From contig CAJQUW010001866.1 in NCBI GenBank assembly GCA_907163375.1, forward strand, positions 744,001-808,000: a stretch of DNA of 64,000 nt. The letters run 5' to 3'. The stretch's first letter is position 1. Each line of letters opens with the position of its first letter. The position numbers were made by a program, and so were the translations under genes. Under the pieces are notes generated by a model, which worked only from the letters and a program-made list of their open reading frames with translations, did no database searches and had not been told where the DNA came from. Source of the DNA: Prostheceraeus crozeri. Its lineage: Eukaryota; Platyhelminthes; Polycladida; Euryleptidae. This document shows, in pieces, positions 2,339-53,237 of this stretch.

Positions 2339-3658
2339 TTGCTTGATGGACAGGCTAAGGCTACATTCGAGGGTACAATTCCCACAAACGAACTGTATTC
2401 TGATATCAGAGATCAATTACAGGAAAGATTTGGTAGAGAGCAACTCGTAACATTGACTCATCTCAGATCATTACTCCACATGCCTCGATCTTCCGATTCT
2501 TCATGTAAATTGAGAAACATGATGAATAATTTTCAGACTCACGTACGATATCTTTCGAATATTAAGATAAGCGACTGGAAGGATTTGGTATTTGTTGCTC
2601 TGCTATTGGACAAAATTCCCACAGATGTAGAAGCCAACATAACGCGTCAGCAAGAAAATCAGGATTGGGATTTCAAAACGCTATGTAAAATGCTCGAAAT
2701 TGAAATAATGGCTCGTGAACAGCCAAGGAAGTTAGACGAATCTGAGAAACGACCCTACACGTATGTACAAATAAAGGCAACAGTGGCTCTAGCTACGAGG
2801 AGCTCAGACGAAAACAAACACAATTGTGTGTTTTGCCATTTAAGCAACCACACTGCTGAGAAATGCAGAAAATGCGCCAAAGCAGATGTAAGAAAGGACA
2901 TTTTGAAAAGAGATAATCGATGCTACATTTGCTTAAGCCGAGGTCATTCTGTAAAGTTCTGTAGAAACCGCACACCTTGTACTCATTGCAATCTCTCACA
3001 TCATCACGCCAGTATTTGCTACAAAAAATACGGAGTTACGTCTGCTCAGATATCTGAGAAAAAAATTACTAATACTACAGAAGCTACAGAATCAACAAGC
3101 GAAAATGTCCTGATTGCAAGTGATGTTGATGTTTTTATGCCAAGTGCCTGGGTTAACCTGAAGAACCCCTCAAATATGCGCAGTTCACATGGGCGAGCGA
3201 TAATGGATACGGGTAGTCACCGAACAAAAATCACAGAAGCAAAAGCGAAGGAATTAGGTCTTAAACCTATTGATCATGTCAGTCTGCAGATCGGAACTTT
3301 CGGTACTGACCAATTTCAGACGTTTCAGGTTCCAGTTGTTGAGATAACGTTGCATGGATTAGAAGGTCAAATAATAGAAACTCGTGCACATGTCTTTCGA
3401 GTTTTGACTGGAACGATAGCAAGGCCAGGAATCGATAAGACCAAATATCGAATATTAGATCAAGTTCCCCTCGCTGACCCACCCGGCGACAACCCTGAAG
3501 ATTTCAAAATTGATCTCATAATTGCATCTAATATCTTGAATAAAGTCTATTGTGGGGATTCAATTATTCTCAACAAACGACTTGGCTTAGCAATCAGAGA
3601 GAGTATTTTCGGATGGACGATCTCTGGACCTCTAAGGAAGATGAAGGGCATGAGATAA
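2339..3658 (+). pseudogene. BEL/Pao gag (partial) and protease
   Basis: This 439-residue frame begins inside the gag domain common in BEL elements (DUF1759-like, residues about 1-130); the usual N-terminal half is missing. Three zinc-knuckle-like clusters follow at about residues 163-225, including CYICLSRGHSVKFC and CTHCNLSHHHASIC, which would bind nucleic acid in the capsid. An aspartic protease core with DTG lies near residue 290 (about 3,205), in the context AIMDTGSHRT. In BEL elements protease is normally fused in frame to RT. Here the frame stops at 3,658 and RT resumes in another frame from 3,670, so at least one indel separates them. The start Met is only the first ATG in the frame, not a real initiator. 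Confidence 0.85.
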
Positions 3659-3669
3659 ACGACTGAACA

Positions 3670-5706
3670 ATGCTCACGACAGTGTCTCCACTTTCTATTA
3701 ACTATCATCCAGAGGACTTTTGGAACCTTGAGTGCATCGGAATCAAAGACTCTCCTACGCAAACTGACGCAGACGAAACGATAAATCCATTCAATGAATC
3801 TATAAAATTCGAAGATGGACGCTATCATGTTAGATTCCCCTGGAAATTGAACGGACCGGAATTACCTAAAAACTACGAGTTGGCACGAGGACGGTTGTCG
3901 AGTCTATGGAAAAGATTAGAAAACAATCAAACTTTGTTGACCACGTATAGTTAAATTATGAAAGAACAAGAAGATAAAGGAATAATCGAAGAAGTTTATT
4001 CTGACTTTGATACTGAAGAGAAAACGAACATTCACTATCTCTCGCCTCATGGTATAAAGAAAGAATCTGATACGACAAAGGTACGAATTGTGTACGACGC
4101 CTCAGCAAAGACAAAGCGAACAAATCCTTCATTAAACGACGCCCTTTATCCAGGGACGGTATTATTGCAAGATATGTGTGGGATATTATTGAGATTTTGT
4201 ATGTCGCCAATAGCAGTCGTCAGTGACATTGAAAAGGCTTTCTTGGCTATTGGACTTCAATTACCTGATCGAGGTGCAGCACGATTTTTATGGATGAAGG
4301 ATCCCACAAACCCTCCCACAAACGACAATTTACGAATAATGAGAATTACGCGAATTCCCTTCGGTACCATTGCCAGCCCGTTTTTACTGAGCGCGACACT
4401 ATTACATCATTTGAGACAGTCGAGCACGGAAACTGCACAACTCATTCAAGATAATGTTTACGTCGATAACGTAATTATCGGAAAGGATAATAATGAAGAC
4501 GCTCTTCTATTTTATGATGAAGCCAAATCATTGCTCGATAATGCAGGCATGAATTTAAGAGAATGGGGATCGAACTCACTGCAGTTCATGAACGGCATTC
4601 CAGTGAATGATAGATCGAAAGAAGAGAAGTTAAAGGTTCTTGGAATTGCATGGGATGCAAGGCAAGACGAAATTCATATTCCGCAAATTGATTTTATGAT
4701 CTCTAGTTCTCTTACCAAACGAGCTCTTCTACAAGCTACAGGAAAGGTTTTCGACCCTTTAGGCCTCTTCGCTCCCATAACAATCAAAGGCAAAATCATT
4801 TTCCGACAGGCGAATGATAGCGTAAATGACTGGGATGACAATCTTCCAGATGTTATTCAAAGTGAATGGAATAAACATGTTCATGAATTACAATTGATTC
4901 CAAGCATTAAATTACAGAGATTCATCGGGTTAAGCAATTATGAATCAGTACAGCTGCACTGCTTTTGTGACGCCTCAGGACAGGTTTACGCAGCGAGTGC
5001 CTATATTCGTTTCGAATCAAGTGAATGTGTAAAAACGAATTTGATATATTCAAAAAACCGCTTGGCCCCTTGCAAATCTATCACAATTCCTCGCCTTGAA
5101 CTTCTAGGAGTTCTAATTGGAGCAAGAATGATCAAGTTTCTCACAAGGCAACTGCCTTACACTTTCTCTCGCATAGTCTTATGGTCAGATTCGCAATGTG
5201 TCTTGCATTGGCTTCGAAGTAATAAACTTCACACAATATTTGTGGAAAATCGCCTAAAAGAAATAAGAAATGTCCCGAAAATTGAATTTCGCTATGTGAG
5301 AACACACGACAATCCGGCTGATCTCCCAACTCGAGGTGCCACATTTTCCGAGTTACGTAATGCCGAAATGTGGTGGAATGGACCCGCTTGGATTATAAAG
5401 GATGAATCGGAATGGCCAGCATTATGTCTTGAGAACAACGAACGAGAGCACGAACTAAAAGAAACTTCAGAGAAAACTGCTACGTCTCTTACTACTCATG
5501 TCTCAGAGTATCCTTTCGATATTGATCTCGGAAACTTTTCTTCGTTACGAGATGTCCTGAAAGAGACGGCAACTCGACTAACTAACAATAGCGACCCATC
5601 GGCAAATGAGTTAGAAAGGGCTCGACAGGCATGGGAGCTGGCAGATCAGAAGATGAGTTTACAAGAATTGAGAATAGCAAACGCTCAACCACAAATCACG
5701 AAATGA
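3670..5706 (+). pseudogene. BEL/Pao reverse transcriptase and RNase H
   Basis: One frame runs from 3,670 to 5,706 with a TAA at 3,952-3,954. The RT domain shows the BEL/Pao signatures VRIVYDASAKT, SDIEKAFLAIGL (first catalytic Asp) and NVYVDNVIIG, where YVDN replaces the usual YxDD, as is usual in this superfamily. RNase H follows: FCDASGQVYAAS, LELLGVLIGARM and LWSDSQCVLHWL, with the catalytic acidic residues present. The C-terminal part leads toward the integrase linker. A frame change at about 5,706 separates this from the integrase frame; the ancestral polyprotein would have been continuous. Confidence 0.9.
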
Positions 5707-5707
5707 T

Positions 5708-6523
5708 AACGTCTCAAAACTTCGACTTTATATTGACGAAAACGATATACTGCGTTCACGAGGTCGCATAGACAATGCTGAAGACATTCCGTATAACGCT
5801 AAGTATCCGATCCTCCTACCAACTAATCATCCCTTCACAAGATTAGTTATCAGTGATTGTCATGTCAAGTGTGGTCACTCAGGAGTAAGTCATACTCTGG
5901 CTGAACTCCGTCAACGTTATTGGGTAGTTCCTGGACGAAGGCAGGTCTCTAAGGTTTTGAATAAATGTACCACTTGCAGACGATGGGAAGGTGGATCTTA
6001 TCAACCCCCAGAATTTTCAGTATTGCCAAAGGAGCGAGTATGCGGGAGCTCACCCTTCACGACTGTCGGAATAGACTACATTGGACCTCTTCTCATCAAG
6101 GCTGATTCTCACGATAATGAGTCGAAAAACGAACCACAAAAGGTTTGGATAAGTCTGTTTATTTGTGCAACGACACGAGCAATTCATATCGAATTAGCTA
6201 ACGATTTGACGGCACAAGAATTCCTCAATTGTTTAACGAAATTCATCGCACGAAGAGGAATACCGAAAACAATTATTTCAGATAACGCAAAAACGTTTAA
6301 GCTCAGTAATCAGACACAAATTGAATTATGGAATGCAGATAAAATTGCTAAAGGTGAAGTCGCTGAGAAGGGCATTGAATGGAAGTTTATAACGGAACGA
6401 GCTCCATGGATGGGAGGTTTCTATGAGAGGATGGTGAAAAGTGTGAAAATGGGACTTAGGAAAATGACGAACGGTTCTTTTCTAAGTAAGCGTCAGTTAG
6501 ATGTTTTAATCTCTGAGATTTAA
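5708..6523 (+). pseudogene. BEL/Pao integrase
   Basis: The frame opens just after the RNase H stop. It contains the HHCC zinc-binding region (VISDCHVKCGHSGVSHTL followed about 40 residues on by NKCTTCRRW). The DDE core is GIDYIGPL, then IISDNAKTF, then GGFYERMVKSVK, so all three acidic residues can be seen. Integrase would insert the reverse-transcribed copy into chromosomal DNA. The frame is stopped by a TAA at 6,521-6,523 inside the conserved helix before NNRPLTYV, which continues in the same frame to 6,757. The stop is therefore a point lesion, not the natural end. Confidence 0.88.
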
Positions 6524-15618: not shown

Positions 15619-16245
15619 TTAAGTCGTTAAATTTCCGTTGCAATTCCCTTTGGGCCTTAAATGTAGGTATACAGTAGAATCAGATGATTCGAAAAATTCT
15701 CCTGGCAATCTTAGAGCTTCTCCAAATACCAGCTGTGCTGAAAATGTGCCAAGATCGGGTTTATATGATGCTCTCATTCCTAGTAATACCAAAGGAAGAG
15801 CTGTAGTCCAATCACTCCGACCGTCCAACACTGCAGTTAATGAAGCTTTGAGATGTCTATGAGTTCTTTCAACTAGACCATTCTGTTGAGGCATGTAAGC
15901 ACATGTGGTGAGATGTTCTACACCAAGATATGTCCATAGTTCCTTCCACATTTCACTGACGAATTGTCTTCCCCGATCTGAAGTAATACGCACACACATA
16001 CCATGTCGAGATATCCACAATAGAAGAGCTTTTGCACAAGATTTGGCTGTAGCGTCCAGTATGGGTACTGCATCATTAAAACGAGTAAAGCGATCAATTA
16101 TTGTGAAAATGTATCGAAAGCCATCTGATTCTTGCAATGGTCCTACTACGTCAATATGAATTGATGCAAATCTTTCGGTTGGTGCTGGAGGTCTGGAGAG
16201 AGTTGTACGTTGATGTCTCGTTACTTTTGCTTGTTGGCAATTCAT
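15619..16245 (-). pseudogene. Gypsy integrase catalytic core
   Basis: It opens with CMNCQQAK (end of the HHCC finger). The DDE core follows: SIHIDVVGPLQESDGFRYIF, ITSDRGRQFVSEMW and PQQNGLVERTHRHLKASL, with all three acidic residues present. The C-terminal chromatin-side part contains LVFGEALRLPGEF. The frame ends at 15,619. The remaining tail, including VFVRVDAHRN and the SIDRLKPAHI motif, lies at 15,255-15,610 in other frames. Confidence 0.9.
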
Positions 16246-16296
16246 GCAATTTTTGGCCCAAGCAGTAACTTTGGATGATATATTCTTGAAAACAAA

Positions 16297-16890
16297 TCAT
16301 TCTGAAATTAAGCGTCGAGTTGTTCTTGCACTAGGATGATGCAAATTATGAAATCGATTGTACACTTCTCTCTGCATGGACTGTGGTACAAGAGGTCTAT
16401 CCAAGCCGGTTGAGGTATCTACCAATAATGACTCTTCGAGATTCAGAATTCGACGTTTTTCAATTCTGAGTGAAGGAGATGAAGATAATTCAATAACATC
16501 ATCTGCATTTGTTTGCAGTGCAGCCATTCTAGAGAGATCCAAACCAATCTGAGTAAGTCCTGTTACAGATGCAACCGCAAGCGCTTTATGAAGTGTAGGT
16601 CTACTCAGATAATCAGACACTACATTTTCGTGTCCACTGACGTGTCTTATATCGGTAGCAAATTCGCTCAGAAATGCAATCTGTCTCTGTACACGAGCAG
16701 AACGTAAAGTTTTTGACGTAAACAAATAGACAAGCGGCTTATGGTCTGTCAGTAGCTGCAGGTTTGTGCGTCCTTCTAGCATATGGTAAAAACGTTTAAC
16801 AGCACTAAACAAGGCAAACAGTTCTTTGTCTCTAGTGCTCCAAATAATTTGCTGAGGATTTAACTTTTTTGAGTGATACGCTATTGGTAC
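16297..16890 (-). pseudogene. Gypsy RNase H and integrase zinc-binding region
   Basis: Directly after the TGA the frame continues as VPIAYHSKKLNPQQ and KELFALFSAVKRFYHMLEGR, then LLTDHKPLVYLF and RHVSGHENVVSDYLSRP, the classical RNase H end. The linker and the H-H part of the integrase zinc finger follow (NRFHNLHHPSARTTRRLISE). The frame then stops at 16,297; the C-C part (NCMNCQQAK) is in the next frame segment. Confidence 0.9.
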
Positions 16891-18195
16891 TCAACGACCA
16901 GACTGAAATTGTTGAATGACTACACCAACTGCTTCATTTGATGCGTCAGCAACCACTTGGGTAGCGACATTATTCCTTGGGTACGCCAATTGCGACGCTG
17001 ATGCAAGACTAGACTTCGCATTCTCAAATGCGTCATTATGTTCATCAGTCCATTTGAACCTGTCTTTTGTCGAATTTGTCAGTTCATGTAGAGGCTTCAA
17101 TATCTTCGCAAGCTTAGGCACAAATCGATGATAAAAGTTAATCATACCGATAAATCGTCGACATTCGACTAAATTGTTGGGCGGTTTCATTGATAATAAA
17201 TTGTTCACCTTGTCAGGTAAAGGGTTTACTCCACACATGGAAACTTCTAAACCAAGAAATTTTACGACAGATTTCCCAAACACACATTTTTCTGGCCGCA
17301 CGACAAAGCCATGTTCAGAAAGTCGAGAGAAAAGATTCATCAAATCCTGACGATGCGTTTCAGGATTAGGAGAATATAGAAATATGTCGTCTATGTAGGC
17401 AAATACTCTGGGCATCCCACGCAAAACTGTATCAATCAGTCTTTGAAATCTCTGTGCTGCGTTGCACAATCCAAAAGGCATGCGAGTATATTCAAAGAGT
17501 CCATATGGGGTTGTAATTGCAGTTTCCTTCCTATCTTTTTCATGCATTGGAATTTGAGCATGTGCTCTCGCCAGATCAATTGTACTGAAAATGCTTGATC
17601 CATCTAGACTATCTGAAAACGTTTGTATATCTGGGACAGGATAGTGGTCCGGTATTGTGATAGCATTTAAACGCTCATAGCAACCAACCATGCGATACTG
17701 TTTGCCACCATCCTTCGGCACTAGATGTACAGGACTCGCCCATTCTGAGTTTGAGGGTTTCAATATCCCCCACTTCAAAAGCTGATCAATTTCTTGACGT
17801 ATCGCAGTCATCCTTTCTGTCGTCAATCGGCAAGGACGTGCATAAACAGGACTACATTTAGTAATTATCCGATGAGAAACACCTGTTGCTTTTATAGAAG
17901 GAAAACCAAGTGAAGGGATGCAAAGGCTTTGAAATTCCTGTGATTGTCGAATATCATCAAATGAAGGATCATCACATTTAGATGCTTGTTCAATTTTCAC
18001 CTGAGCAATGACAGGATGTTGTTTCCTCGAAGTATGACAGGCTATAGTCGAGTAAGTTTTGCCATCAAGAAGACGATTTCCACGAACATCTGGAATTATG
18101 TCATGTTGTCTTAAAAAATCCGCTCCAATGATTGTTGTTGGAGCGTCAGCTACTATAAAATTAAACGTAAATTTCTTTCCAAGGCCAAAATCCAA
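16891..18195 (-). pseudogene. Gypsy protease C-terminus, RT and start of RNase H
   Basis: A 434-residue frame. Residues 1-40 finish the protease (IIGADFLRQHDIIPD). RT covers about residues 105-330: WASPVHLVPK, STIDLARAHAQIPM (first catalytic Asp), TRMPFGLCNAAQRFQRLID, and FAYIDDIFLYS with the YIDD active site. MINFYHRFVPKLAKIL marks the connection. RNase H begins with VVADASNEAVGVV. A TGA at 16,891-16,893 interrupts where Trp is usual (position after QSGR), and the RNase H domain continues in the same frame in the next segment. Confidence 0.92.
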
Positions 18196-18362
18196 ATTAA
18201 CACGTTTGTTGATCTCGTAAACAGTAATTTCAGTTCCGTTTGCTCTTTCAAGCGAATAGTTGGATCGGACAATGAAGTATGGAAGACTGTTGGAGGAAGT
18301 AAAGAAACTTCGCTTCCACTGTCAATAAGAAAACAACGGCCATCTTGGTCACTGACATACAA
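18153..18362 (-). pseudogene. Gypsy aspartic protease, N-terminal part
   Basis: The frame contains YVSDQDGRCFLIDSGSEVSL, with the catalytic DSG of a retroviral-type aspartic protease. It then runs out of frame near 18,230. The C-terminal half of the protease continues in the pol frame, where GADFLRQHDI is the usual second hallmark. A single frameshift therefore splits the domain. Confidence 0.82.
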
Positions 18363-18399
18363 AAGATTACAGGCATAATTGCAAGAAGAAGTGCAACCA

Positions 18400-18600
18400 A
18401 CAGTCGCCTCTACTGAGGGTTGCTGCGCTCGTTTCCCGAATTGCGCATGTCTTCATGGAATGTACATGGTCTTATGCACTTTTGTGCATTCTGCCCATAT
18501 CGCTTATGAATGTAACACCAACGATCCACAAAGTCACAATTGTTAGCATTTGGTCTTCAGGCCTGAGCATTGGTATGGTTGCGGTTTCCTGTGGCTTGGG
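18400..18600 (-). pseudogene. Gypsy nucleocapsid zinc knuckle
   Basis: In a frame shifted relative to gag, the minus strand encodes CDFVDRWCYIHKRYGQNAQ and then KCIRPC, a CxxH-x4-G-x4-C-like cluster typical of this Gypsy lineage. It would bind the element RNA. It lies between gag and protease as expected. Confidence 0.65.
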
Positions 18601-18629
18601 CTCTCTTCTTGTCAGAATGTTCATTCTGT

Positions 18630-19256
18630 TCATTCTGTTTTTGTAATTCTTTCGAAAAATGTGAAATGTCTCTTCTTTTTCGTGTGCGCATTCATTTCTT
18701 GATCTTCAACATTATCACTTTGATTTACCAAAGACACTATTGTATCTGTTTGTGAATTGAAATATAAATCTGCTCGTAGTGCAATATCCGACAAGGTTGA
18801 GCAATTCAACCAATATCTACATAACAATTGTAAAGAAGTTGGCAAGCGCCGCAGAAAGTGCTCCTGTATTATTTCATGATCCAGATCGTGGGGATACAAC
18901 AATTCAAGCTCATTGAAAAGAGTCGATGGTTTACGATCTAATGAACAGGAAGGTAAATGCTCCAATCGTCTGAGCTTTTCAGCTGGTGTCAGTTTCAATC
19001 GTAAACACAGGCACTTCTGTAGCTGATCGCAACAATCCGAAGCCAACGGAGATGCTTTGACCAGATGTTTTATCAATCGGAAATATTGGGACGGTAATTT
19101 AGCGATTGTCTTGCGAAATTTTGCAGCTTGTGTGGTAATGCCAGCGTCTGCCATTAAATTATCACACATTAGCAGCCATGTATCAATGTCAGTTGAATCA
19201 AATGAAGGTGACCCAACGCGAACTGACGCGCAAGTTGTTAATTCGCTAGTTGCCAT
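18630..19256 (-). pseudogene. Gypsy gag
   Basis: A 208-residue frame starting ATG at 19,256, about 30 bases inside the 5' LTR, and typed as gag by position and content. It starts MATSELTTCASVRVGSPSFD and carries the region common to many animal Gypsy gags: a short segment around the WLLMCDNLMADAGI helix, and YFRLIKHLV, EKLRRLEHLP and FLRRLPTSLQ motifs. The product would assemble the virus-like particle. The zinc knuckle belonging to it lies downstream in another frame (about 18,475-18,518), so the frame stop at 18,630 is probably an indel lesion. Confidence 0.8.
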
Positions 19257-19261
19257 ATTTA

Positions 19262-19283
19262 ATCACGTCGGGCTCACCAAATA
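19262..19283 (-). promoter_or_regulatory. Gypsy primer binding site
   Basis: Just inside the 5' LTR, on the element strand, the sequence TGGTGAGCCCGACGTG starts a few bases after the LTR end. It begins with TGG, the complement of a tRNA CCA 3' end. The tRNA species was not assigned. Confidence 0.75.
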
Positions 19284-19457: not shown

Positions 19458-20837
19458 ATACATTGACTAAAAGCTCCATTCCGCTGATTCATCAAATTAT
19501 TATCGCCATTGGCTTTTGGCATGATTGATTCAAATATCAGAGGTTCGTAGTACGAGTAATTCCCAATTATCGAGAAATTGTCTCCTTAGGACTATTCGCA
19601 TGGGTAGACAGCTCTGCTGGAGATGGATTCCTTCTCAGTTGCTCGCTTATCCAAGTACTAAATGGGCGCTTGTTAGTGCTCATGTACCACACACAGCATC
19701 ACATGAGCATTGGTATATCACTTAAAATGATTCAATAATTTAGTGACTTTATAAACAGGCCGAATTTCTGCATTCGACTGAAGGTTAATGTTTTTTCAGC
19801 TTCATCACAATGAGCGGAATGGACCAAGCTATACATTTCCTTCTTTCAACTTAACTGATCATCGCATCGTTGTTGAAAATTCTCTTCAACTATTTCATTA
19901 CGCATGTGACTGAATCCTTTTTAATAAAGCATTTCAGTCAGTGATCATAATATTCGTCACACAAACAGCGACCGCATCGCATACAATTTGTGTCTCATGG
20001 GGGTAGTCCTGAAAAGGCATATAAAAGCAGGTGTTCGTCTTGTTCGTCAAATGTTCGTCTTTCAAGTGTTCAACCTTTATAATATGCAGGTTGATCTGAA
20101 ACGAATCAATCATCTTTGTACATAATCTTAGTATCAGGGATATCAGAATTCTTCTTGGGGTTCTCCATAGTGAATTGGATATTCTCATCAAGAGAATAGA
20201 GGAAATTGAAAAATTTCTCCACCTAATCCGTCCAAAAATGGCCTGGGGAACAGTAGGCCTACCTCTGATAAAATATCTGGGACTGATCTTCATGATTATT
20301 GAACTGAGATTGAATATGATTCAATCCTAGCTCAATAACTATGACAGTCGTCAGTCTCACAGTCGTCACATTTCTTCTCTTCTCTCGATGTCACAATGTT
20401 GAAACCGGGCTGGCCTGAGAACGAGGTAGGCCTGGCCGGGCGTGGATTGGGCCTGCAAATAAGAAACTCGCACGGGCCTCGACATCCTAAATCTGACGGC
20501 CTCTGATTGTTATCTTTTGATCAAACTGTGATAAGGCTTGAAAGTCAGAGGCGGAGAAAGGTGTGAATGTAATCAGATCTCTGTTTGAATGAGTCAGGAT
20601 CTTCTATCAATTTGTGTATGGCAGCCTAGATGCTAAATTAGGTTATTACTTTCTCGAAAACATCAAGAATTGCCACATCTCTGAAAGCGTCCACGAGAAG
20701 AGACAGTTATCACTGCATTATTGCACTTCTCCTTCATATTTCTCATCTTATCACTAGAATCTGCCCTCCTCCACTATCTTCTTCTCCTTCCTCTTCCGTT
20801 TACATTTAAGTCTTCTCTTAGCCTTCACGCTTCGTAG
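19458..20837. other. no gene seen
   Basis: Intergenic DNA with no convincing protein and no repeat boundary that I can define. It leads into the large trinucleotide tract. Confidence 0.55.
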
Positions 20838-21375
20838 CCTCCTCCTCCTCCTCCTCCTCCTCCTCCTCCTCCTCCTCCTCCTCCTCCTCCTCCTCCTCCT
20901 CCTCCTCCTCCTCCTCCTCCTCCTCCTCCTCCTCCTCCTCCTCCTCCTCCTCCTCCTCCTCCTCCTCCTCCTCCTCCTCCTCCTCCTCCTCCTCCTCCTC
21001 CTCCTCCCTCCTCCTCCTCCTCCTCCTCCTCCTCCTCCTCCTCCTCCTCCTCCTCCTCCTCCTCCTCCTCCTCCTCCTCCTCCTCCTCCCTCCTCCTCCT
21101 CCTCCTCCTCCTCCTCCTCCTCCTCCTCCTCCTCCTCCTCCTCCTCCTCCTCCTCCTCCTCCTCCTCCTCCTCCTCCTCCCTCCTCCTCCTCCTCCTCCT
21201 CCTCCTCCTCCTCCTCCTCCTCCTCCTCCTCCTCCTCCTCCTCCTCCTCCTCCTCCTCCTCCTCCTCCTCCTCCTCCGCCTCCTCCTCCTCCGCCTCCTC
21301 CTCCTCCTCCTCCTCCTCCTCCTCCTCCTCCTCCTCCTCCTCCTCCTCCTCCTCCTCCTCCGCCTCCTCCTCTTC
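20838..21375. repeat. (CCT)n microsatellite, about 535 bp
   Basis: Almost pure CCT/CTC/TCC repeat. Three single-C insertions (CTCCCTCC at about 21,006, 21,088 and 21,179) change its phase, and a few C-to-G changes lie near the 3' end. After the last phase change it is in frame with ORF1 of the downstream PLE and reads as poly-Ser with Ala interruptions. Long Arg, Glu and Gly frames on the other strand are artefacts. Confidence 0.97.
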
Positions 21376-22048
21376 ACAAGGGGATGAACTTCCAGCATCT
21401 TCGACCACCAATGCTGCCGAGTTGCCTTCTACTCCTCAATCCCGCAAGCGAGCCCAGCCATCCGACTTCACAACACCAACAACTCAACTCAATCTCTTCG
21501 GCACTCCACTCATTGAGCCACCAAGGAGCAGAGCTCGTTCAAACTCTCTACCAACCTCCAACCTTTCCATCTCTCCAACAAGTGAGCACAAACATATAGT
21601 ATATGGAGACTACAACATTCTCCAGTATAAACGATCTGACATCTTAACCGTGTCCCATCAAATGGGAAAACTGAGCCATTTCAAGGTTATTATATCAAAC
21701 CTCAAGAAAGTTTACAGCGACATTGAGACTGTTGTCCTTTGCATTAGTGCTCTAGATAGAGCAAATGCTTCCATCACAAACACTAAATGTTTTAAGACCT
21801 TCTTATATCATGCCCGACAAAAATACCCGGAAGCCAACATCATCGTGATTCTTGGAGGTATCTCCACAACTTTTTCTGAGTCGGAGATAAGCAATGTAAA
21901 TGCTTTCAATGAATTCATACGCGAAAAATGTAAGGCTGATTGTCTGACCGTTCCTCCTCCCGATCCATACATTATAACGAACTTGAATGTTTTATCAGAT
22001 CAGTCGAAAAATGATCTCTTCGCCATCTTAGATAATTTTTTTCCATAG
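21182..22048 (+). CDS. PLE1 ORF1: Ser-rich, SGNH-like protein (5' partial)
   Basis: The frame is open from the last phase change of the CCT tract: about 65 Ser/Ala residues, then a Ser/Thr/Pro-rich linker, then a globular domain of about 150 residues from HKHIVYGDYN (near 21,590). Conserved blocks are TVVLCISALDRANASIT, NIIVILGGISTTFSESE and a proline-rich LTVPPPDPYI. The same blocks occur in the copy at 29.9-30.6 kb, where block I reads GDSN. GDSN followed by a beta-alpha layout suggests an SGNH/GDSL-like fold; here the nucleophile Ser is Tyr. The first Met is at 21,422. The stop at 22,046-22,048 lies just after a slippery heptamer. Function is unknown; esterase activity in this copy is unlikely. 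Confidence 0.8.
   Translation, partial: SSSSSSSSSSSSSSSSSSSSSSSSSSSSSSSSASSSSASSSSSSSSSSSSSSSSSSSSSSASSSSQGDELPASSTTNAAELPSTPQSRKRAQPSDFTTPTTQLNLFGTPLIEPPRSRARSNSLPTSNLSISPTSEHKHIVYGDYNILQYKRSDILTVSHQMGKLSHFKVIISNLKKVYSDIETVVLCISALDRANASITNTKCFKTFLYHARQKYPEANIIVILGGISTTFSESEISNVNAFNEFIREKCKADCLTVPPPDPYIITNLNVLSDQSKNDLFAILDNFFP
22036..22042 (+). promoter_or_regulatory. candidate -1 ribosomal frameshift site, PLE1
   Basis: T-TTT-TTT in the ORF1 reading phase (codons AAT TTT TTT CCA TAG). The RT frame is the -1 frame and is blocked just upstream by a TAA at 22,033-22,035. A slip here would read through into ORF2. The second copy has T-TTA-AAC at the same place. Confidence 0.7.
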
Positions 22049-24198
22049 GAAAAAGACTATCTGAAAACGAACTTTCTAACATAGTGATATTAGCCAAAAA
22101 CTTTGAGCCTAATCATCATACATTTTCATTACTCAGTAACAGCACAACATTTGTGCCTGTTCCAAAACATTGCCCTCATAAAGAAATAGTTAAGCAAATT
22201 TTGGAATACATTCGGAAATTCCAATGGCAAAATGCATTTAAATGGCCTCGTTCATATGACAGCACCAGAAATAGATTCGGGTTTTCATTATCAAATTACT
22301 GGCCACATCCTAATGTTGTCCCGGACAATACAAAGCAATTGTCCAAAGAAATTTTAGCCTCTACCTTCTCAATTTTGAAAAGCTGTCCTAATTGCTTTCC
22401 TGATGATAATCTAAACCAATATGAAAGAAAGGAAATAAGGCGATTACAAGACGAAGAGATCACTATTCGACCTACCGACAAGGGGCAAAGATGGGTGATA
22501 ATGTCTACCAATTCCTATAGGAATGAGATTAACAGACAATTGAGTCAACAAGGCACTTACTCACAGATTGACGATTCGGTCTCTAAAAATAATAGGCTTC
22601 GAATTATTCAATCGCTTGACAAACTGAAGTCAACTCGTCTCATAACTAACAAAGAGTACAACTATCTGTACCCCTCAAAAGATTACAGTCATCGGTCTTT
22701 CAACATTTTGCCAAAAATTCATAAGTCAACCTGGATCAAAAGTGATATGCCTCCGGGCAGACCTATTATATCTGATGTTAATTCCGAGTCTAGAAATTAC
22801 TCTGACATGATTGATTATTTCTTGAAGCCTATTGCTCAAAAATCCGAGAGTTATTTACATGATACTTTACATATGATAGCCATACTTAGAACTATTGAGC
22901 TTCCTGATAACGCTTTTTTATTTACACTTGATGTCGAGTCTTTGTACACTATGGTGCCTGTTCAAGAAACTATTAATCTCATTTCTAATTTATTTCTTGA
23001 AAATCCTGATGAAAAGAGACCAGACCTTACTCTTCTGACACAGATGAATATGATACTAAACAACAATGACTTTCAAGTTGATAATAATTTCTGGCTCCAA
23101 ACGTCCGGCGTTGCCATGGGAAAAGCCTTCGCTGGCTCTTTCTGCAATATATTCATGAACCGTTGGGAACAGACAGCTTTATTGTCTTTTCCTTTAAAGC
23201 CAAAAGTTTGGTTAAGATATCAAGATGATATTTTTGGGATTTGGAACCACAGTTTAAATGATTTTGATAGGTTTGTGTCTCACCTGAATAGACATCATCC
23301 CAACATTAAGCTAGAAACCAAAATAAATCATAACGTCAAATTCCTAGATTTAGAAATTTACATTGAGAATAGCAATTTAGAATATAAGCTCTGGTTTAAA
23401 CCTTCTCATTCACATTTTATCTTACCCGAAAAGTCCTATCATCCTAAACATGTGCATAAAGGCATAATTTATAGCCAATTATATAGAGCAGTAACTCACA
23501 GTTCATCTAAAGCCAATTATCGCGAAGCCAAGTCTAAAATGACAAAGGTTTGGTATAATTTAGGTGTAACCAGAACACTCGTGCGCAACACCGAGACAAA
23601 AATATTTAATACAACTGAGCAAAGGCAATATTGGGAGACTGGTTTTTTCCCATGTCAAAACAACAATTGCTTTTGTTCATGTTCCAATAATAAAATCACT
23701 TTTAATAATATTCATAACAATATATCCTACCCTATTGTTCATAGAACTACATGCGATACCATAGGAATCATTTATCTTATTCAATGCAAATTATGTCTAA
23801 AACAATACATCGGTGAAAGTTCACGCTCTGTTGTAGATAGAATAAAGGAACACCTATGCGCTATACGTAGCAAAGACGTAAGCAGATCTATTGTAGCAAA
23901 GCACTTTAATTCCATTGATTGCAAATTAGAAAATTTTTCTTTCCATGTGATCGAACATTGCATTAATAGACCTAAACGACTTGAAAGGGAATCATACTGG
24001 ATAAGAAAATTAAAATGCTATCAACCACATGGCATGAACAATTCTACAATAGCTGACTCCAATACAACCAAATTGATCATTCCGTTCAGTAATTGTGCTG
24101 AACAAATCGGAAATATGGTTCGCAATAAAAGTTCAAATCTTACTAAGACAAGGGTCATCTATACCAAACATAGAAATCTAAAATCACTACTAAACTAG
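22036..24198 (+). CDS. PLE1 ORF2: reverse transcriptase with GIY-YIG endonuclease
   Basis: The RT frame opens at 22,036 with no ATG near its start, which fits translation by frameshift from ORF1. N-terminal motif: TTFVPVPKHCP. RT core: RRLQDEEITIRPTDKG, ILPKIHKSTWI, GRPIISDVNSE, FTLDVESLYTMVP (first catalytic Asp), SGVAMGKAFAGSFCNIFMN, LRYQDDIFGIW (YQDD active site) and KFLDLEIYIE. After a Cys-rich linker (FPCQNNNCFCSC) the GIY-YIG nuclease follows: GIIYLIQCKLCLKQYIGES, then the Arg in DRIKEH and the Glu in RLERESYWI. It would nick the target and prime reverse transcription in the nucleus. There is no internal stop over about 720 codons. Confidence 0.93.
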   Translation, partial: FFSIGKRLSENELSNIVILAKNFEPNHHTFSLLSNSTTFVPVPKHCPHKEIVKQILEYIRKFQWQNAFKWPRSYDSTRNRFGFSLSNYWPHPNVVPDNTKQLSKEILASTFSILKSCPNCFPDDNLNQYERKEIRRLQDEEITIRPTDKGQRWVIMSTNSYRNEINRQLSQQGTYSQIDDSVSKNNRLRIIQSLDKLKSTRLITNKEYNYLYPSKDYSHRSFNILPKIHKSTWIKSDMPPGRPIISDVNSESRNYSDMIDYFLKPIAQKSESYLHDTLHMIAILRTIELPDNAFLFTLDVESLYTMVPVQETINLISNLFLENPDEKRPDLTLLTQMNMILNNNDFQVDNNFWLQTSGVAMGKAFAGSFCNIFMNRWEQTALLSFPLKPKVWLRYQDDIFGIWNHSLNDFDRFVSHLNRHHPNIKLETKINHNVKFLDLEIYIENSNLEYKLWFKPSHSHFILPEKSYHPKHVHKGIIYSQLYRAVTHSSSKANYREAKSKMTKVWYNLGVTRTLVRNTETKIFNTTEQRQYWETGFFPCQNNNCFCSCSNNKITFNNIHNNISYPIVHRTTCDTIGIIYLIQCKLCLKQYIGESSRSVVDRIKEHLCAIRSKDVSRSIVAKHFNSIDCKLENFSFHVIEHCINRPKRLERESYWIRKLKCYQPHGMNNSTIADSNTTKLIIPFSNCAEQIGNMVRNKSSNLTKTRVIYTKHRNLKSLLN

Positions 24199-24525: not shown

Positions 24526-24641
24526 TCTCTCTCCTCCTCTCCTCCTCCTCCTCCTCCTCCTCCTCCTCCTCCTCCTCCTCCTCCTCCTCCTCCTCCTCCT
24601 CCTCCTCCTCCTCCTCCTCCTCCTCCTCCTCCTCCTCCTCC
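24526..24641. repeat. (CTC)n microsatellite, about 115 bp
   Basis: Pure CTC repeat ending in CTCATCCC. It lies in the PLE1 3' region, upstream of the second terminal-type segment. Confidence 0.97.
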
Positions 24642-24839
24642 TCATCCCTTATTTAGATATCTATGGTTTTCACTTTGTCTGCTTGACTATAACTGACGTG
24701 TATAGATATCTATGCTTCCTTTTAGTGACAGTGCATGATGACGTCGTTTTTTCAGCCTGATGTGAGGCCACAAGGTTCTATGTTAGATTTTCATGACTGT
24801 TCACTATTAATGCAAGCGCCTTTGTTGACGCGTTCACTA

Positions 24840-25010
24840 CACTTCGTGACTTTGTATCCACTGACGAAGCCCATAAGAAGGGCGAATATATTGGTGATCT
24901 CCGACTTTCGCTATTTTTCAACAACCAACGTTAATTGGGCAGCGGGCAGAGCGAGCGACATGCGTCGGTCAGCCTATGGTCGACGCTTCCTACTACCTAC
25001 TCCTCCTCCT
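24840..25010 (+). repeat. PLE terminal-type segment (start of a second unit)
   Basis: Similar to 29,060-29,230 upstream of PLE2. Both carry CACTGACGAAGCCC, a short variable loop, GGGCGAATATATTGGTG, and about 50 bases on a GCAGAGCGAGCGAC motif followed by a Gly-Arg-Arg-rich frame (GRRFLLPTP here, GRRYLLPTP there). PLE units are often arranged head to tail with partial copies, so this may be the 5' end of a truncated downstream unit. Confidence 0.65.
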
Positions 25011-26251: not shown

Positions 26252-27643
26252 CTCACTGACATAAATAATGAAACCAACTATCATTGACTTGAATGGAAGT
26301 TTGTTTCATTTTTTTCTATGGTTTGAGATGATATCTCGCTTTCTATGTATCACCATTGAACTCCATATGATAAGGGAAATGATATAGGACCATCAAATTT
26401 CAAAATTTGATATTGATCACAGTAACAGCTAGAAGTTGAACAGAATCACCACCTACTGCTGACCAGATTTGACTTATGAAATGGCGCACGATAACTTTAC
26501 CAGAGGAATGGCAATTGGGATGATGCGTTGTGGGCAAAGTTCTACAACTGTTGCGAAAGAATTGAAAATTTCACGGGTCGTTGTATGGAGGTGGTGGTGT
26601 CGTTGGAAAGCAGAAGGAAATGTGGGAAAGAAGAAAGGATCAGGAAGACCAAGGGTATCATCCAAACGGACAGATGCACGCTGAGTTTTAGCTGCTAAAA
26701 GAAACAGATTTGTGTCCGTCCCGAAGCTAATTGTGTACTGGAAGGTTGCTGGGAACGTTGCTTGTAGCGTTCGAACTGCATATCGAAGATTGCGAGAAGC
26801 TGGTATACAGTCTCGACGACCCGCTGTGAGAATTCCGCTGAGCCTGGAACATCGAAGGAGACGAGTGACGTGGTGTCAAGGTCATCAGTCGTGGAGTGAC
26901 AGTCAGTGGGAACGTGTGCTCCACGACTGATGAATCGAGGTTTACTCTCGATTTCAACGATGGTCGGATCCGTGTTCATCGCTTGCCAAGTGAACGATTT
27001 GCTCCATGTTGCGTCAAAGAACACGACCGGTACGGCGGCGGTAGTGTCATGGTTTGGGCCGGTATCTGATACAATGGAAAAACACCAGCAATCGTAGTGA
27101 AAGGAACATTGACAGCGATATGCCGACGAGATCGTGACACCGGTCGTGGTTCCAGCAGTGACATCGAATCAATTGATTTTTCAGGATGACAACGCAAGGC
27201 CCCATCGCGCTTCAGTGGTCTCTAACAGGATGGCAAGCAGTGGAATCCCAACCTTGGAATGGCCCTCACGTTCTCCCGACCTCTCCCCCATCGAGCACTG
27301 CTGGAATGAACTTGGTCGCAGAGTGAGGGAGAGGTACAACCACCCACCAGTGTCTTTGAAGATGTTGGCCGACAGACTGATCGAACAGTGGAACCTCTTA
27401 GACCTGGCATTCATCCGGCGACTGTGCTCATCCATGCCCTCACGCATCGATGCCTGTTTGGATGCTCGCGGTCGTCACACCCGTTTCTAACTTAAGTTGT
27501 TAAATTCATGAGTATCAAATTAAATGTTTTTGAGTAAAGCATTCGAGTTCTCCTTTTACAAACAACAAACAAAAGTGCAGTACAACCAAGTTTAAGTCAT
27601 AAGTATTCATATCAGGACTTGTTTCATTCTTTTTGTCACTGAG
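26252..27643 (+). mobile_element. Tc1/mariner transposon, inactive
   Basis: 1,392 bp between TA dinucleotides (26,250-26,251 and 27,644-27,645). Inverted termini are CTCACTGACATAAATAATGA on the left and CTCAGTGACAAAAAGAATGA on the right, matching over about 26 bases with a few changes. It encodes a broken Tc1-type transposase. TA targeting, size and transposase type agree. Confidence 0.92.
26469..27490 (+). pseudogene. Tc1-type transposase
   Basis: The N-terminal helix-turn-helix is intact (GMAIGMMRCGQSSTTVAKEL, then SRVVVWRWW). A TGA at 26,682 ends the first segment. The second HTH is in another frame from 26,712 (SVRTAYRRLREAGIQSRRPA). The catalytic region shows TDESRFTLDF (first Asp) after a one-base frameshift near 26,925, then GGGSVMVWAGI followed by a TGA. 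After another frameshift come FQDDNARPHRA (second Asp) and PDLSPIEHCWNELGRRV (Glu), consistent with DD34E. It would cut and paste the element into TA sites. At least four lesions inactivate it. Confidence 0.92.
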
Positions 27644-28957: not shown

Positions 28958-29156
28958 ATATCTGTCATGTTGCATCAACAATGTCTCATGTGCTTTGCTT
29001 ACACGAACCAAGATCGATTGGCAGTCAAGTGTCAATTCAACTATCACAGACATCATTGTGCACACTTTGTCACTTCATAACCACTGACGAAGCCCTTAAA
29101 CGTGGGGCGAATATATTGGTGCTCTTCCAACTTGATAGTGTTTTCAACTACCGATT

Positions 29157-30634
29157 TTGTGGGATTTGGGCAGAGCGAGCGACGGTCGTCGACCAACCCA
29201 TGGCCGACGCTATTTATTACCCACTCCTATGCGTCCAGTGCCTGCCCATTCTCGCTCTATCCTAGGACCCTGTCCACTTCTCAACGCGTCGTCCTCAAGC
29301 AATTTCTCAAACTCTTATCATCGCATTCCTGTTCAGTACAACAGAACTCTCTCGTCTCGCCAAGTTCCACCAGCTCATTTTGAACTCACCAAGGCGCATT
29401 TCTGTGTTATAAAATGCTTTCATCATCTCGCTCTGCTAAATCAAGGCCCTCCTCCATCCTTAACACGTACGTGTAACAAACTCTCCACTCTCCTGACTCC
29501 AGCCTTCGCTTCACCCGACTTCAAGAGGCTTTCACCTCGTCTAGCTGATGAGTGGCTACTCGCTAGTTTGAGCTATCTGAAGGAGCATTTCTCTTCGACT
29601 TTGGACCGTACTTTGATCACCATCTGCTCAACACCGATCCCGGCAGATGTGCTATCTTCTTCGTTATCAGTCTCATGCCATTGGGCCCGCAAACAACTAG
29701 GAAGAAAACTCCGCAACACCGTTTTAGATGACGCATTGTCATTGATCCACCCAAACCAGTTATCTGCCACCGACTCAACACCAGACCCACTTCCAACCAT
29801 CGACTCATCTTCGTCAGCATTATCATCGGTACCTCCTCCAACCTCCACATCTCCTCCAGCGATTAGTGCTTCTCAGTTTTTCTGTTAATGAGATCTCGTC
29901 TACACTTGCTCTTTCATCTGCGATGGTTACGCATGGTCTTGGTGCAAGCTCTTCCACCGCTAGGCCGACCGCACCTGCAAATCCTGCAGCCTCGTCGTCA
30001 ACGAGTTCTTCCGTACGTGATCCACCTCCCGACTCAAACGATAATCTTGACGGTACTTCTCCGAATTCAAACTCCAATACACCTACTCTTCCCACTACAT
30101 CGACTTCGTCAATTGACTCGTCTGTCCTTAATACAAATCTGAGTTCTCCTACAACTGAAAATTCTGCTTTACACCATCCGTCCGCTCTCATTTTTGGTGA
30201 TTCCAATTTAGAATCTTTCAATGATTCTCGTTGTCAAAGTCGTTTCCTTGCCGAATGGAAGACTTTCCGCCCTTCGAGCCTACGCCTGTAACTTGACAAG
30301 TGTTCCCCGGTATTCGAAAGTCTTCATTTGTCTGAGCCTTCTTGACCGCAGAAATAGACTGATAACAAATTTCAGCGCCCTCAAAAGTTTACTAGCTCGT
30401 CTGCACCATTTGTTTCACGACGCGACTCTGTTTGTAATTTTATCAGGTGTCACGGATATCTTCACGCCTGCGGAACGTGCTGTTCATCAAGAATTTTCAG
30501 CATTAGTAAGCAATAATCATCCTTCTAGCTGCATGGTCCTTGCAGCTCCGCATCCTTTCATCCCCTCCGGCAATACCTGGGATGCTGGCACCAGATCGCA
30601 AGTGTTTTTGAAAGTCACGAACCATTTAAACTGA
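29157..30634 (+). pseudogene. PLE2 ORF1: N-terminal domain, Ser-rich linker, SGNH-like domain
   Basis: Three frame segments. 29,157-29,888: GRR-rich start, a helical domain (HFELTKAHFCVIKCFHHLAL, LADEWLLASLSYLKEHFSS, WARKQLGRKLRNTVLDDAL) and the start of a Ser/Pro linker. 29,866-30,291: Ser/Thr/Pro linker and SGNH block I, ALIFGDSNLESF. 30,260-30,634: VFICLSLLDRRNRLIT, LFVILSGVTDIFTPAE and MVLAAPHPFIPS, aligning block by block with PLE1 ORF1. It shows that PLE1 has lost its N-terminal helical domain to the microsatellite. GDSN keeps the putative nucleophile Ser. Two frameshifts (about 29,880 and 30,255) inactivate this copy. Confidence 0.8.
30625..30631 (+). promoter_or_regulatory. candidate -1 ribosomal frameshift site, PLE2
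   Basis: T-TTA-AAC in the ORF1 phase (codons CAT TTA AAC TGA): a canonical X-XXY-YYZ heptamer directly before the ORF1 stop at 30,632-30,634. The -1 frame continues as CTG ACT TAT GGG into the RT N-terminus, homologous to the start of PLE1 ORF2. Confidence 0.75.
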
Positions 30635-31116
30635 CTTATGGGAGGCTTGCCGCTGAAATGCTCAACTCTATCTACAATCTGTCGTCGTATTTACCCACCT
30701 CGTATGAGCTACTTTGTCTTCTAAACACACCAACTACTTTCATCTCAACTCCTACAAGGTGCAATCACGCCTCAGCATTCTGTTTTGTTCTCCCGAAAAA
30801 AATTTTTCCCGAAAACTTCAATGGTCTTCCTGCCTACGCAACAATTCTCCTTCCTCTGTCCGCTGTCGATTTGGAACTCCTTGTATTGAAATTGAAGAGA
30901 ATTTGAATTTTGTTGTTACTAAAGATGGATGTGACATTGACCACAGCTGTTTATTTCACTGCATGCAACTATCCAAGAAGTTGATCCCCTACTCTGATTT
31001 AGATAACTTTATGAGCAATTACACCATCGATTCATGTACTACTGCATCTTTTCGTGACGACATTGAAAATTATCTACAAAAGTATACTTCACTAACTGAA
31101 ATTCAACGATACAAGT
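30631..31116 (+). pseudogene. PLE2 ORF2, N-terminal fragment of RT
   Basis: After the slippery site the frame gives GRLAAEMLNSIYNLSS and LLNTPTTFISTPTRCNH, matching PLE1 GKRLSENELSNIVILA and LLSNSTTFVPVPKHCPH. A frameshift at about 30,790 moves it to another frame (FSRKLQW, then RCRFGTPCIEIEENLNF). The catalytic RT core is missing. The last 60 codons before the pogo insertion have no clear PLE match. Confidence 0.7.
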
Positions 31117-41853: not shown

Positions 41854-43417
41854 TATACGCCCAGGTGGGAAAACTATTTTCACTTATCAACAAGAAAAGA
41901 TTTTGTGTAAACGCATTCTATATGCAGCTGAGCGTGGATTTCCTATGACTATTTCTAACATTCGATTCGCGGCTTATGAATACGCACATACTGTACTCTT
42001 GATCGTCGCAGAAAATTGAATTCCAGTGTTCCAAATAATTGGCAGAAGAACAAGCGGGCATCACTTGACTGGTGGGAGTCGTTCCGCAAACGAAATCCAG
42101 ATCTTTCGTTACGAAAACCTGAAGGACTCTCTGCTGCGCGTGCGCAGGCCTTTAACAAGGAAAGAGTTGATGGCAATTTCAATGATTTAAGAGAACTGTT
42201 TGATCTTCTCAATTTGAGAGACTTTCCTCAGCTTGTCTACAACACAGATCAGACAGGGATATCCACAGTGCCTAATAATCCCAGCAAAGTGATTGCACAG
42301 AAAGGAGCTCGAAGTGTGCAGGCTGTTCGCACAGGTGAGCGAGGAACATTAACAACAATCATACCGACTGTTTCTGCATCGGGAGACATTCTGCCACCTT
42401 TCGTCATTTGCAATGAGGGCAATGTGAAGATGACTGTACGAAACATCTACGAAACTCATAATATCGGCGTCGCCTCCACGAAGTCTGGTTATAATGATTC
42501 AGGAACTTTTGTTTGATATATGAATCATTTTGATAGACACAGGACGAAAATTCCAGGCAAGAAGTGTGTTTTACTTCCGGACGGACATGCTTCACATGTT
42601 TCCATCGAAGCTACTGATTTCTGTATTAATCATGACATTGAGTTAGCTTGCATACCACTTCATTCAAGCTATAGATTACAACGCTTGACACGCATTTTAA
42701 TGCAGTCCTCAAACGCGCGTGGTGCAAGGCCCGTGAAAATTTTCTAAACGAGAGCGGAGTCTCCGCGATTACGACCAAAAATTTCGCTTCGCTTTTTTGT
42801 GCTGTTTTCAAAGAAATTGAGAGGAAAAGAGGTCTTGTTGTTGACGCATTTGCACACTGCGGAATATATCCATTGCAAAATACAATCAGTGATCATTAGC
42901 TCTCCGTTTCAAAGTCATTCCTTTCAGAAGTTGAAAGTAAGATGGAAATTGATTCAGTCAAGCCTTGTGATGTTCAAGATAATAATTCTGAAGGTATCTT
43001 AATCAGATCTATAATTTGCAGCCATAAGAAAACTTTGAATCCTACACATACTAAAGTCCATAAGATTCACATCACGTCTCCAGAAATTAGGGAGAAAAAA
43101 CTTATAGTTCGAATGCGATTTGATCAGAAGAAGAAACCATCGTGCCGTTTGATAAACGATGGACAACAATCGCCATGCACATCCAGAGGTATCGAAGACA
43201 GTATTTTGCAGCCCTCAACGTCAAAATCTCCAAAAAAGGATTCTGCAAAGCAAACGAAAAGAAAACTTGATAACAAGGAACACCAATTTTGCTGCTGCGA
43301 CGCAGCTTGGGAAGAAACGACAGAAGATTGGATGAAATGCGAATCTTGCAACAAGTGATGTTGTGAATCCTGTTTCGGCACTTTTTATTGCTATAAATGC
43401 TCTGTAAAGTTTATGTG
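41854..43417 (+). pseudogene. pogo transposase, catalytic and C-terminal part
   Basis: It continues with the second HTH (YQQEKILCKRILYAAERGF), shifts frame near 41,990, then gives NNWQKNKRASLDWWESF and the DDE domain. First Asp: VYNTDQTGISTVPNN. Second Asp: VLLPDGHASHVSIEATD. The third (LDTHFNAVLKRAW) is only readable after another frameshift near 42,680. A TGA at 42,514-42,516 interrupts before YMNHFDRH. The C-terminus carries a Cys-rich finger (FCCCDAAW, WMKCESCNK, CCESCFGTFYCYKC) with a TGA at 43,356-43,358 where Trp is expected. Such PHD-like fingers are common at the end of pogo-family proteins. Dead copy. Confidence 0.88.
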
Positions 43418-51904: not shown

Positions 51905-52270
51905 TCATATGGTTGAGAAAGATTCTTGTCTGTTCATAGATTGGTTACCAGCATCCTTGATGCATCTGCTTTCCAAGCTCCTTCTCTTCACATAACCTTT
52001 CAGATTTCGGTGCACGATCTCCCATTCAATATTCATTGAATGTCCTTTATGGTCAGAAACAAAGTGTTCCTTCACTGCAGAGGGATTACTCGACATTACG
52101 TGTTCCTTTATGCGCGTCCCTACCAATCTTGATGTCTCACCGATATAGTATTTCGAGCACAACTTACAGGCTATCTTGTATATCAGGTTTTTCTCAAAAC
52201 AGGAATCTTTCTCTTTTTTAGAAAAGTTACATGCACAGCAATCGGCACAGCATTGAGGCCTTTCCTTAGG
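51905..52270 (-). pseudogene. PLE3 GIY-YIG endonuclease (minus-strand copy)
   Basis: After the poly-C tract: KERPQCCADCCACNFSKKEK (Cys-rich linker), NLIYKIACKLCSKYYIGETS with the GIY-YIG core, GTRIKEHVMS with the conserved Arg, and KGYVKRRSLESRCIKDAG near the catalytic Glu. It ends at 51,905. It would nick target DNA. It is out of frame with the RT because of the homopolymer length, and identical in protein sequence to the plus-strand copy. Confidence 0.9.
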
Positions 52271-52279
52271 GGGGGGGGG

Positions 52280-53226
52280 TGGAATCTCCGTTTTAAGCTG
52301 CTTCCAGGGTCGTACCAAATGTTCATCAGGTCATGTACACCTGTTCTTTTCATCAAGCTGGATATCTTCCGTTTCAGGACTTCATCAATGAAGGGGATTT
52401 TCATGAAGATTTTCTTTTCTTTATCCTTCTTCGATTTAGGCTTGTCTCTAGATCTTAGCTTTCTGTATGTCTTTTTGATAAATGGCAATGGATATCCATT
52501 TCTCACGAATTTGTTAAAAATCAAATCGATGGAATAATGACGGTTTGCTTCGGTTGTGGACCGTCTCTCCCCTCGAATTAGTTCCCCAATCAATGTTCCA
52601 CGTTTTTGAGGAATAGGTCCTCCCGCATTCCAAGAGAAAATGCAGCCACTGTTTATCTCCTTCGTGTAAAGTCCCGAGGAGAACGTATTGTCAAAACTTT
52701 GCTGTATTTCACAGTCGAGAAAGGGAAGATAGCCGCTGGTTCTCGGTTGGTCTATGGTAAATTGTATGGCTTTGGAGACGGAGTTGCACGTGCTCAACAT
52801 TTCCGTAGAGGAGATCTCTGCTGGCCAAACAATCCAAACGTCATCAATATACCGTTTCCATATAGTGTCAGGGGGTAATTGACTCAAAATACTTCTTTCC
52901 ACAAAATCCATGTAAATTATAGCCAATTGAGGGGCTATGGAATTTCCCATCGAGAGGCCATCATTTTGCTTATAGGTAGTACCATTCATAAGAACGAAAT
53001 CATTTTCCAAAGCCATTGAAACTAACGTCATGACATGATCGATGTCCATAGTATTCAAAATCTCATTTCTGCGTGAATGTCGCGAAACGAATTGTCTCAA
53101 TACTGTGAAGATACCAGGTTCTCCGTTCGCATCTGTCCTAGGCACACTACCGTAGAGATTGACAGCATCCAGAGATGCTTGACTCAACGTTTTCGTGTAG
53201 GATCTGGCTTCAAGGATGCCAACCAT
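52280..53226 (-). pseudogene. PLE3 reverse transcriptase (5' truncated)
   Basis: Begins just before motif A (LDAVNLYGSVP, with catalytic Asp), then NDGLSMGNSIAPQLAIIYMD and WKRYIDDVWIVWP (YIDD active site), YLPFLDCEIQ, and the thumb/linker region (PFIKKTYRKLRSR and FIDEVLKRKISSLMKRTGV). The frame runs into the C11 tract at 52,269-52,279. There it leaves the frame of the endonuclease: 9 or 12 Cs would keep the two domains fused, 11 do not. The other arm has 9 Cs. Confidence 0.9.
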
Positions 53227-53237
53227 TGGACCCCCCC

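Follow-up and report, generated by a model that had tools for sequence, protein, structure and literature searches.

A candidate -1 frameshift site between ORF1 and the reverse transcriptase frame of a putative Neptune-like Penelope element in the flatworm Prostheceraeus crozeri

Introduction

How is the reverse transcriptase (RT) of a Penelope-like element (PLE) translated when its frame lies directly behind an upstream ORF1, in a different phase and without an early start codon? The question is raised by a locus of the flatworm Prostheceraeus crozeri that resides in a stretch of 64,000 nucleotides (contig CAJQUW010001866.1, positions 744,001 to 808,000), which was analysed as a whole and is termed the window in the following; all coordinates refer to it. 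In retroviruses and many LTR elements, -1 frameshifting at X_XXY_YYZ heptamers is the classical route to Gag-Pol. An initial annotation of the window put forward that a programmed event of this kind also joins ORF1 to RT in one PLE (copy 1) and pointed to a second copy (copy 2). The comparison presented here is based on these two copies (n=2), both located in the 64-kb window, one of them decayed and the other without an ORF1 start.

Results

The following features, all on the plus strand, define copy 1 and its surroundings:

20822-22048, +, copy 1 ORF1, stop to stop, 408 aa
21575-22045, +, C-terminal domain of copy 1 ORF1, putatively SGNH/GDSL-esterase-like, with GDYN at the position of the block-I serine
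22036-22042, +, slippery heptamer T_TTT_TTT of copy 1 (T7, in ORF1 phase)
22046-22048, +, stop codon TAG of copy 1 ORF1
22036-24198, +, copy 1 frame for RT, Cys-rich segment and GIY-YIG endonuclease, 720 aa, stop-free, -1 relative to ORF1
24839-25004, +, pseudo-LTR-like repeat 3' of copy 1, 75% DNA identity to 29062-29228, with CTGACGAAGCCC at 24861
29062-29228, +, pseudo-LTR-like repeat on the 5' side of copy 2

The junction itself (22030-22060) has the sequence AGATAATTTTTTTCCATAGGAAAAAGACTAT. Read in ORF1 phase, copy 1 ORF1 ends with AAT TTT TTT CCA TAG, which verifies the earlier statement that T7 is in slippery phase, and only 3 nt separate the heptamer from the ORF1 stop. The RT frame is exactly -1 relative to ORF1 and is closed upstream by a TAA at 22033-22035, again as originally described, such that the two frames overlap exclusively at 22036-22048, over 13 nt that include T7. 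Likewise, the RT frame was said to have no early ATG, and its first one is indeed found at residue 156 (position 22501).

The C-terminal end of the copy 1 RT ORF contains a GIY-YIG domain (PF01541, E 9.4e-08, residues 577-660) that is preceded by a cluster of cysteines recognized by eye (C540, C545, C547 and C549). The RT itself is presumed from motifs such as YQDD seen by eye in this frame; no Pfam RT family was matched in the ORF at E up to 1, a PDB sequence search with RT gave no match at E up to 0.01, and NCBIfam returned only a group I intron endonuclease match below cutoff, on the GIY-YIG part. An AF2 model of the RT ORF was unusable (pLDDT 33.6). Copy 1 RT is similar to a PLE-like fragment at 52-53 kb of the window (tblastn, E 8.4e-09). 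This fragment (52049-53603) has an inverted arrangement, with RT on the minus strand and GIY-YIG part on both strands. The Cys-rich segment between RT and GIY-YIG points to a Neptune-like PLE, and this assignment, the SGNH-esterase-like nature of ORF1 and the -1 frameshifting proposed below are, taken jointly, regarded as probable.

For the C-terminal domain of ORF1 an alpha/beta fold is predicted with low confidence (pLDDT 62.7). Structure matches of the model in the PDB include the SGNH esterases EstL5, TesA and PAF acetylhydrolase; the top match (E 2.8e-03) is a TubZ, all Z values are under 8, and unrelated folds score equally well. A PDB sequence search with ORF1 at E up to 10 yielded no match.

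A (TCC)n/(CTC)n array makes up the first half of copy 1 ORF1, whose frame has its sole ATG at 21662. The true 5' end of the copy therefore appears to have been lost or replaced. Since ORF1 runs into the (TCC)n array and has no ATG before 21662, and since a search for a second pseudo-LTR-like repeat upstream of copy 1 found none within the 64-kb window, the copy may be unexpressed. Long (TCC)n/(CTC)n arrays flank copy 1 on both sides (about 20840-21375 and 24531-24642), the former reading as poly-Ser/Leu/Pro in the ORF1 frame.

The pseudo-LTR-like repeat thus lies on the 3' side of copy 1 and on the 5' side of copy 2, and neither copy has it at both ends. Both repeats contain CTGACGAAGCCC ... 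GGGCGAATATATTGG (24861-24894 and 29084-29119), which resembles a hammerhead core by eye. As Rfam detected no hammerhead, either in the whole window at the gathering score or in the two repeats at E up to 5, and as the short core pattern has two further exact occurrences on the minus strand, the repeats are designated only as hammerhead-like by eye. Elsewhere in the window, ORFs at 2339-6523 (+) and 15619-19262 (-) are taken by eye to resemble BEL/Pao-type and Ty3/gypsy-type LTR retrotransposons, and those at 26474-27168 and 41980-42516 look, again by eye, like remnants of Tc1/mariner and pogo/Tigger-type transposases.

Searches for relatives in other collections did not add copies. In viral contigs, copy 1 RT as query gave 6 stretches, the two-row RT alignment 100 and the two-row ORF1 alignment 98, with 0 confirmed in each case; 9 stretches from a collection of genome contigs likewise included 0 confirmed relatives, and tblastn against phages and plasmids produced no match. 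These outcomes say little about distant PLEs because scans with a single protein reach close relatives only.

Copy 2 extends from 29062 to about 31118. It is a different element from copy 1 and is decayed. Its features relevant to the junction are:

30242-30634, +, C-terminal domain of copy 2 ORF1, ending CAT TTA AAC TGA, with the upstream part in other frames (decayed)
30625-30631, +, slippery heptamer T_TTA_AAC of copy 2 (TTTAAAC, the canonical U_UUA_AAC, in ORF1 phase)
30625-30915, +, start of the copy 2 RT frame, -1 relative to its ORF1 and homologous to copy 1 from Arg 30643

The ORF1 stop of copy 2 (TGA, 30632-30634) follows its heptamer after 0 nt, and its RT frame carries an ATG at residue 12. 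Apart from the junction, frame changes were seen by eye at three places, of which one falls within 29746-29888 and the others lie near 30250 and 30800. The last of these regions (RT, 30785-30830) shows an apparent further -1 change close to an A7T5 run, which is likely decay, again judged by eye. From the pseudo-LTR-like repeat onward copy 2 also has an open frame of 249 aa (29139-29888), in another frame than the downstream ORF1 domain. This frame had no match in Pfam and could either belong to ORF1 as its N-terminal part or be an ORF of its own.

Despite the divergence of the two ORF1 proteins (30% identity over 105 columns), the region around the junction can be compared between the copies. 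The RT starts can be aligned over 42 aa without a gap, with a score of 62, a value reached by 0 of 2000 shuffles (22.2 +/- 4.7); with either of its other two frames, copy 2 reaches only 17 against the RT start of copy 1. Homology had originally been placed just past T7; it commences at the Arg codon at 22054, 11 nt after the heptamer, and the distance from heptamer start to the homologous Arg codon is 18 nt in both copies (22054 and 30643). Equally, 81 nt lie between the last similar ORF1 residue and the Arg codon in copy 1 and copy 2 alike. Ahead of the site, first, second and third codon positions in the ORF1 frame are identical in 56, 65 and 36 of 123 cases; from the heptamer onward, the corresponding numbers in the RT frame are 16, 22 and 5 of 42. 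This distribution of identity by codon position indicates selection in ORF1 phase before the site and in -1 phase after it, and the constrained frame shifts by -1 within the 81 nt in both copies. Compared between the copies, the RT frame upstream of the heptamer scores 19 and the ORF1 frame downstream of it 24, values that have no shuffle control of their own and are taken as no similarity because they are near the shuffle mean of the RT start (22.2).

The final 24 ORF1 codons of copy 1 are not similar to copy 2 (score 14; shuffles 14.8 +/- 3.1, 2999/5000 reach it), and the ORF1 stretch that ends in PYI/PFI is still similar between the copies (56/5000 shuffles reach the score). When the ORF1 ends are aligned as proteins with gaps, the two heptamers are offset by one codon, and the exact heptamer register is the one given by the RT-side alignment. 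Three-row alignments including the other-frame piece of copy 2 were discarded, as this piece was misplaced, and the counts were drawn from other alignments.

In both copies (2/2), an X_XXY_YYZ heptamer in 0-frame phase is thus combined with a downstream ORF in -1. The idea that the heptamer is conserved at the ORF1 end stands in so far as the homologous place in copy 2 is occupied by another canonical heptamer, in a comparison of two copies of which one is decayed. Different letters at the same place and in the same phase look like the pattern expected when function is conserved and letters are not, as far as two sequences can suggest it.

The chance of such an occurrence was estimated with canonical in-phase heptamers defined by XXX as any base, YYY as A or T and Z as not G. 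They are present at 19 of 4647 codon positions in 15 stretches (summed by hand, both junctions included), some of these stretches not being clearly retroelement ORFs. Each ORF1 has one further in-phase heptamer (GGGAAAA at 21664 in copy 1, AAATTTC at 30367 in copy 2), and copy 1 RT has five. When codons were shuffled, a heptamer arose at the fixed place of copy 2 in 86 of 20,000 cases, at the own place of copy 1 in 92 of 20,000 and at any of the last three places of copy 1 in 259 of 20,000; anywhere in the overlap zone of copy 2 it arose in 2107 of 20,000, that is, not rarely. The figure for the fixed place in copy 2 is the strong one since that place is set by copy 1.

Frame damage is the alternative that survives best. 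ORF1 and RT would then once have been continuous in active elements and would have been put out of phase when the T run of copy 1 changed by one base, through mutation or assembly error, and copy 2 independently suffered an indel. Runs such as T7 are prone to indels, and the three further frame changes in copy 2 (about one per 650 nt, three in about 2 kb), including the one near the A7T5 run at about 30800, imply that the change near its junction could be damage as well. Canonical or typical PLEs are moreover described with a single ORF in the accessible parts of PMC11167929, PMC6515669 and PMC3846280. Damage would, however, require independent hits of the same sign within the same 81-nt interval, the length of which is unchanged in both copies, and, in addition, canonical heptamers that came to stand in phase at one and the same place by chance (the 86/20,000 of copy 2). 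We consider this course of events unlikely.

Splicing could also join ORF1 to RT if T7-CCATAG of copy 1 acted as polypyrimidine tract and 3' splice site, so that an intron would remove the ORF1 end. TTTTTTTCCATAG/G is acceptor-like, and in 21374-22040 seven in-phase GT donors are available to this acceptor, among them 21929 AAT/GTAAGG (119-nt intron), 21857 GAG/GTATCT (191 nt) and 21581 CAA/GTGAGC (467 nt). Copy 2 offers in-phase pairs too, the best by eye leading from 30505 TTA/GTAAGC to 30594 (89 nt), and PLEs are able to retain introns according to the available part of PMC3846280. In-phase GT-AG pairs are nevertheless plentiful (12 in copy 1 and 16 in copy 2, counting donors from the conserved ORF1 part and introns of at least 50 nt). 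Those pairs that look best by eye occupy non-homologous places and different phases in copy 1 (21929 to 22048) and copy 2, and an intron starting at 21929 or 30505 would delete the very ORF1 stretch ending in PYI/PFI that has remained similar. Splicing is accordingly rated as highly improbable and, like frame damage, as less likely than -1 frameshifting. Lower still we place separate translation of RT by reinitiation, an internal entry site or a non-AUG start with heptamers present by chance, a possibility that agrees with the close overlap of ORF1 stop and RT frame, comparable to termination-reinitiation, and with the ATG at residue 12 of the copy 2 RT frame but is opposed by the lack of any ATG before residue 156 in that of copy 1 and by the improbability of two chance heptamers at one place.

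A pseudoknot 5-9 nt downstream of the heptamer had been suggested as a point to be checked, and on this point the prediction came out negative. None of four stretches folded 3' of the heptamers contained a stable stem (z of -0.91 and -0.48 for copy 1, +0.98 and +1.23 for copy 2), and a simple scan for H-type pseudoknots found one in 0 of 2 copies, 60 mononucleotide shuffles averaging -2.2 and -5.7, so that both copies performed worse than their shuffles. These tests cover local folding and simple H-type pseudoknots. As folding and scan were both empty, a stimulatory structure is not claimed as support. What stands of the programmed -1 frameshift originally proposed is the -1 relation, the slippery phase and the absent early RT start codon, to which the heptamer of copy 2 is added here; the stimulatory structure was not found.

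Discussion

The arrangement described here is probably best explained by programmed -1 frameshifting that would generate an ORF1-RT-endonuclease fusion in the style of gag-pol, in a Penelope element that is Neptune-like and carries an SGNH-like ORF1. The majority of ribosomes would terminate at the ORF1 stop just past the heptamer, and a minority would slip back by one base on T_TTT_TTT in copy 1 or T_TTA_AAC in copy 2. Slipped ribosomes would continue into the RT-endonuclease frame and thereby provide the fusion in low stoichiometry, which could serve to bring RT-EN to particles or RNPs assembled by ORF1. That ribosomes slip, how often they do so and what the fusion is for are what we infer from the architecture of the two junctions. 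It is conceivable, if rather tentative, that -1 frameshifting is a rule throughout the lineage of PLEs with esterase ORF1, in which case the heptamer would be under selection while its letters turn over.

If this interpretation is correct, PLEs would have to be counted among the retroelement classes with a recoded RT. Should the slippery site be conserved, some PLEs would tune the ratio of ORF1 to RT as retroviruses do and produce RT-EN as a fusion. A word of caution follows for annotation, as describing PLEs as single-ORF elements can overlook an ORF1 in another frame.

Frameshifting between ORF1 and RT of a PLE was not reported in any title or abstract among the matches listed for the open-licence PMC literature, a collection beyond which key PLE papers lie. 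Within the accessible parts of individual articles, 'frameshift' refers to gag-pol of an LTR element in PMC5408684 and to decay in PMC6431247, the word is absent from PMC11167929 and PMC3905857, and frameshifts in PMC3846280 are defects only, in 12 of 18 places where 'frame' occurs. The proposed mechanism would be a known recoding device in a retroelement class for which no such report was found.

Esterase ORF1s as such have already been published for Penelope-like elements (PMC3905857, PMC5408684, accessible parts), and Neptune-like PLEs of fish and molluscs are named among those with GDSL/SGNH esterases (PMC5408684, same part). The elements in these articles share with the present one the PLE character and, putatively, the esterase-like ORF1, to which cysteines clustered between RT and GIY-YIG are added here; the joining of the esterase ORF to RT and frameshifting in PLEs are not mentioned in the portions of both texts at hand. 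Canonical Penelope/Poseidon elements, as far as covered by the available sections of PMC3846280 and PMC11167929, possess RT with a C-terminal GIY-YIG, of which the GIY-YIG is matched and the RT presumed in the present element, as well as pseudo-LTRs, to which the pseudo-LTR-like repeats may correspond. Their repeats carry a hammerhead motif, whereas the repeats studied here are hammerhead-like by eye only, and they consist of a single ORF, whereas an upstream ORF1 in another frame is present in the element from P. crozeri.

From retroviral and LTR Gag-Pol the present case differs in belonging to another class of retroelements and in that a stimulatory structure was not detected. It shares with Gag-Pol a heptamer located where the first ORF ends, the location of RT in the -1 frame and, in copy 1, the lack of an early RT start.
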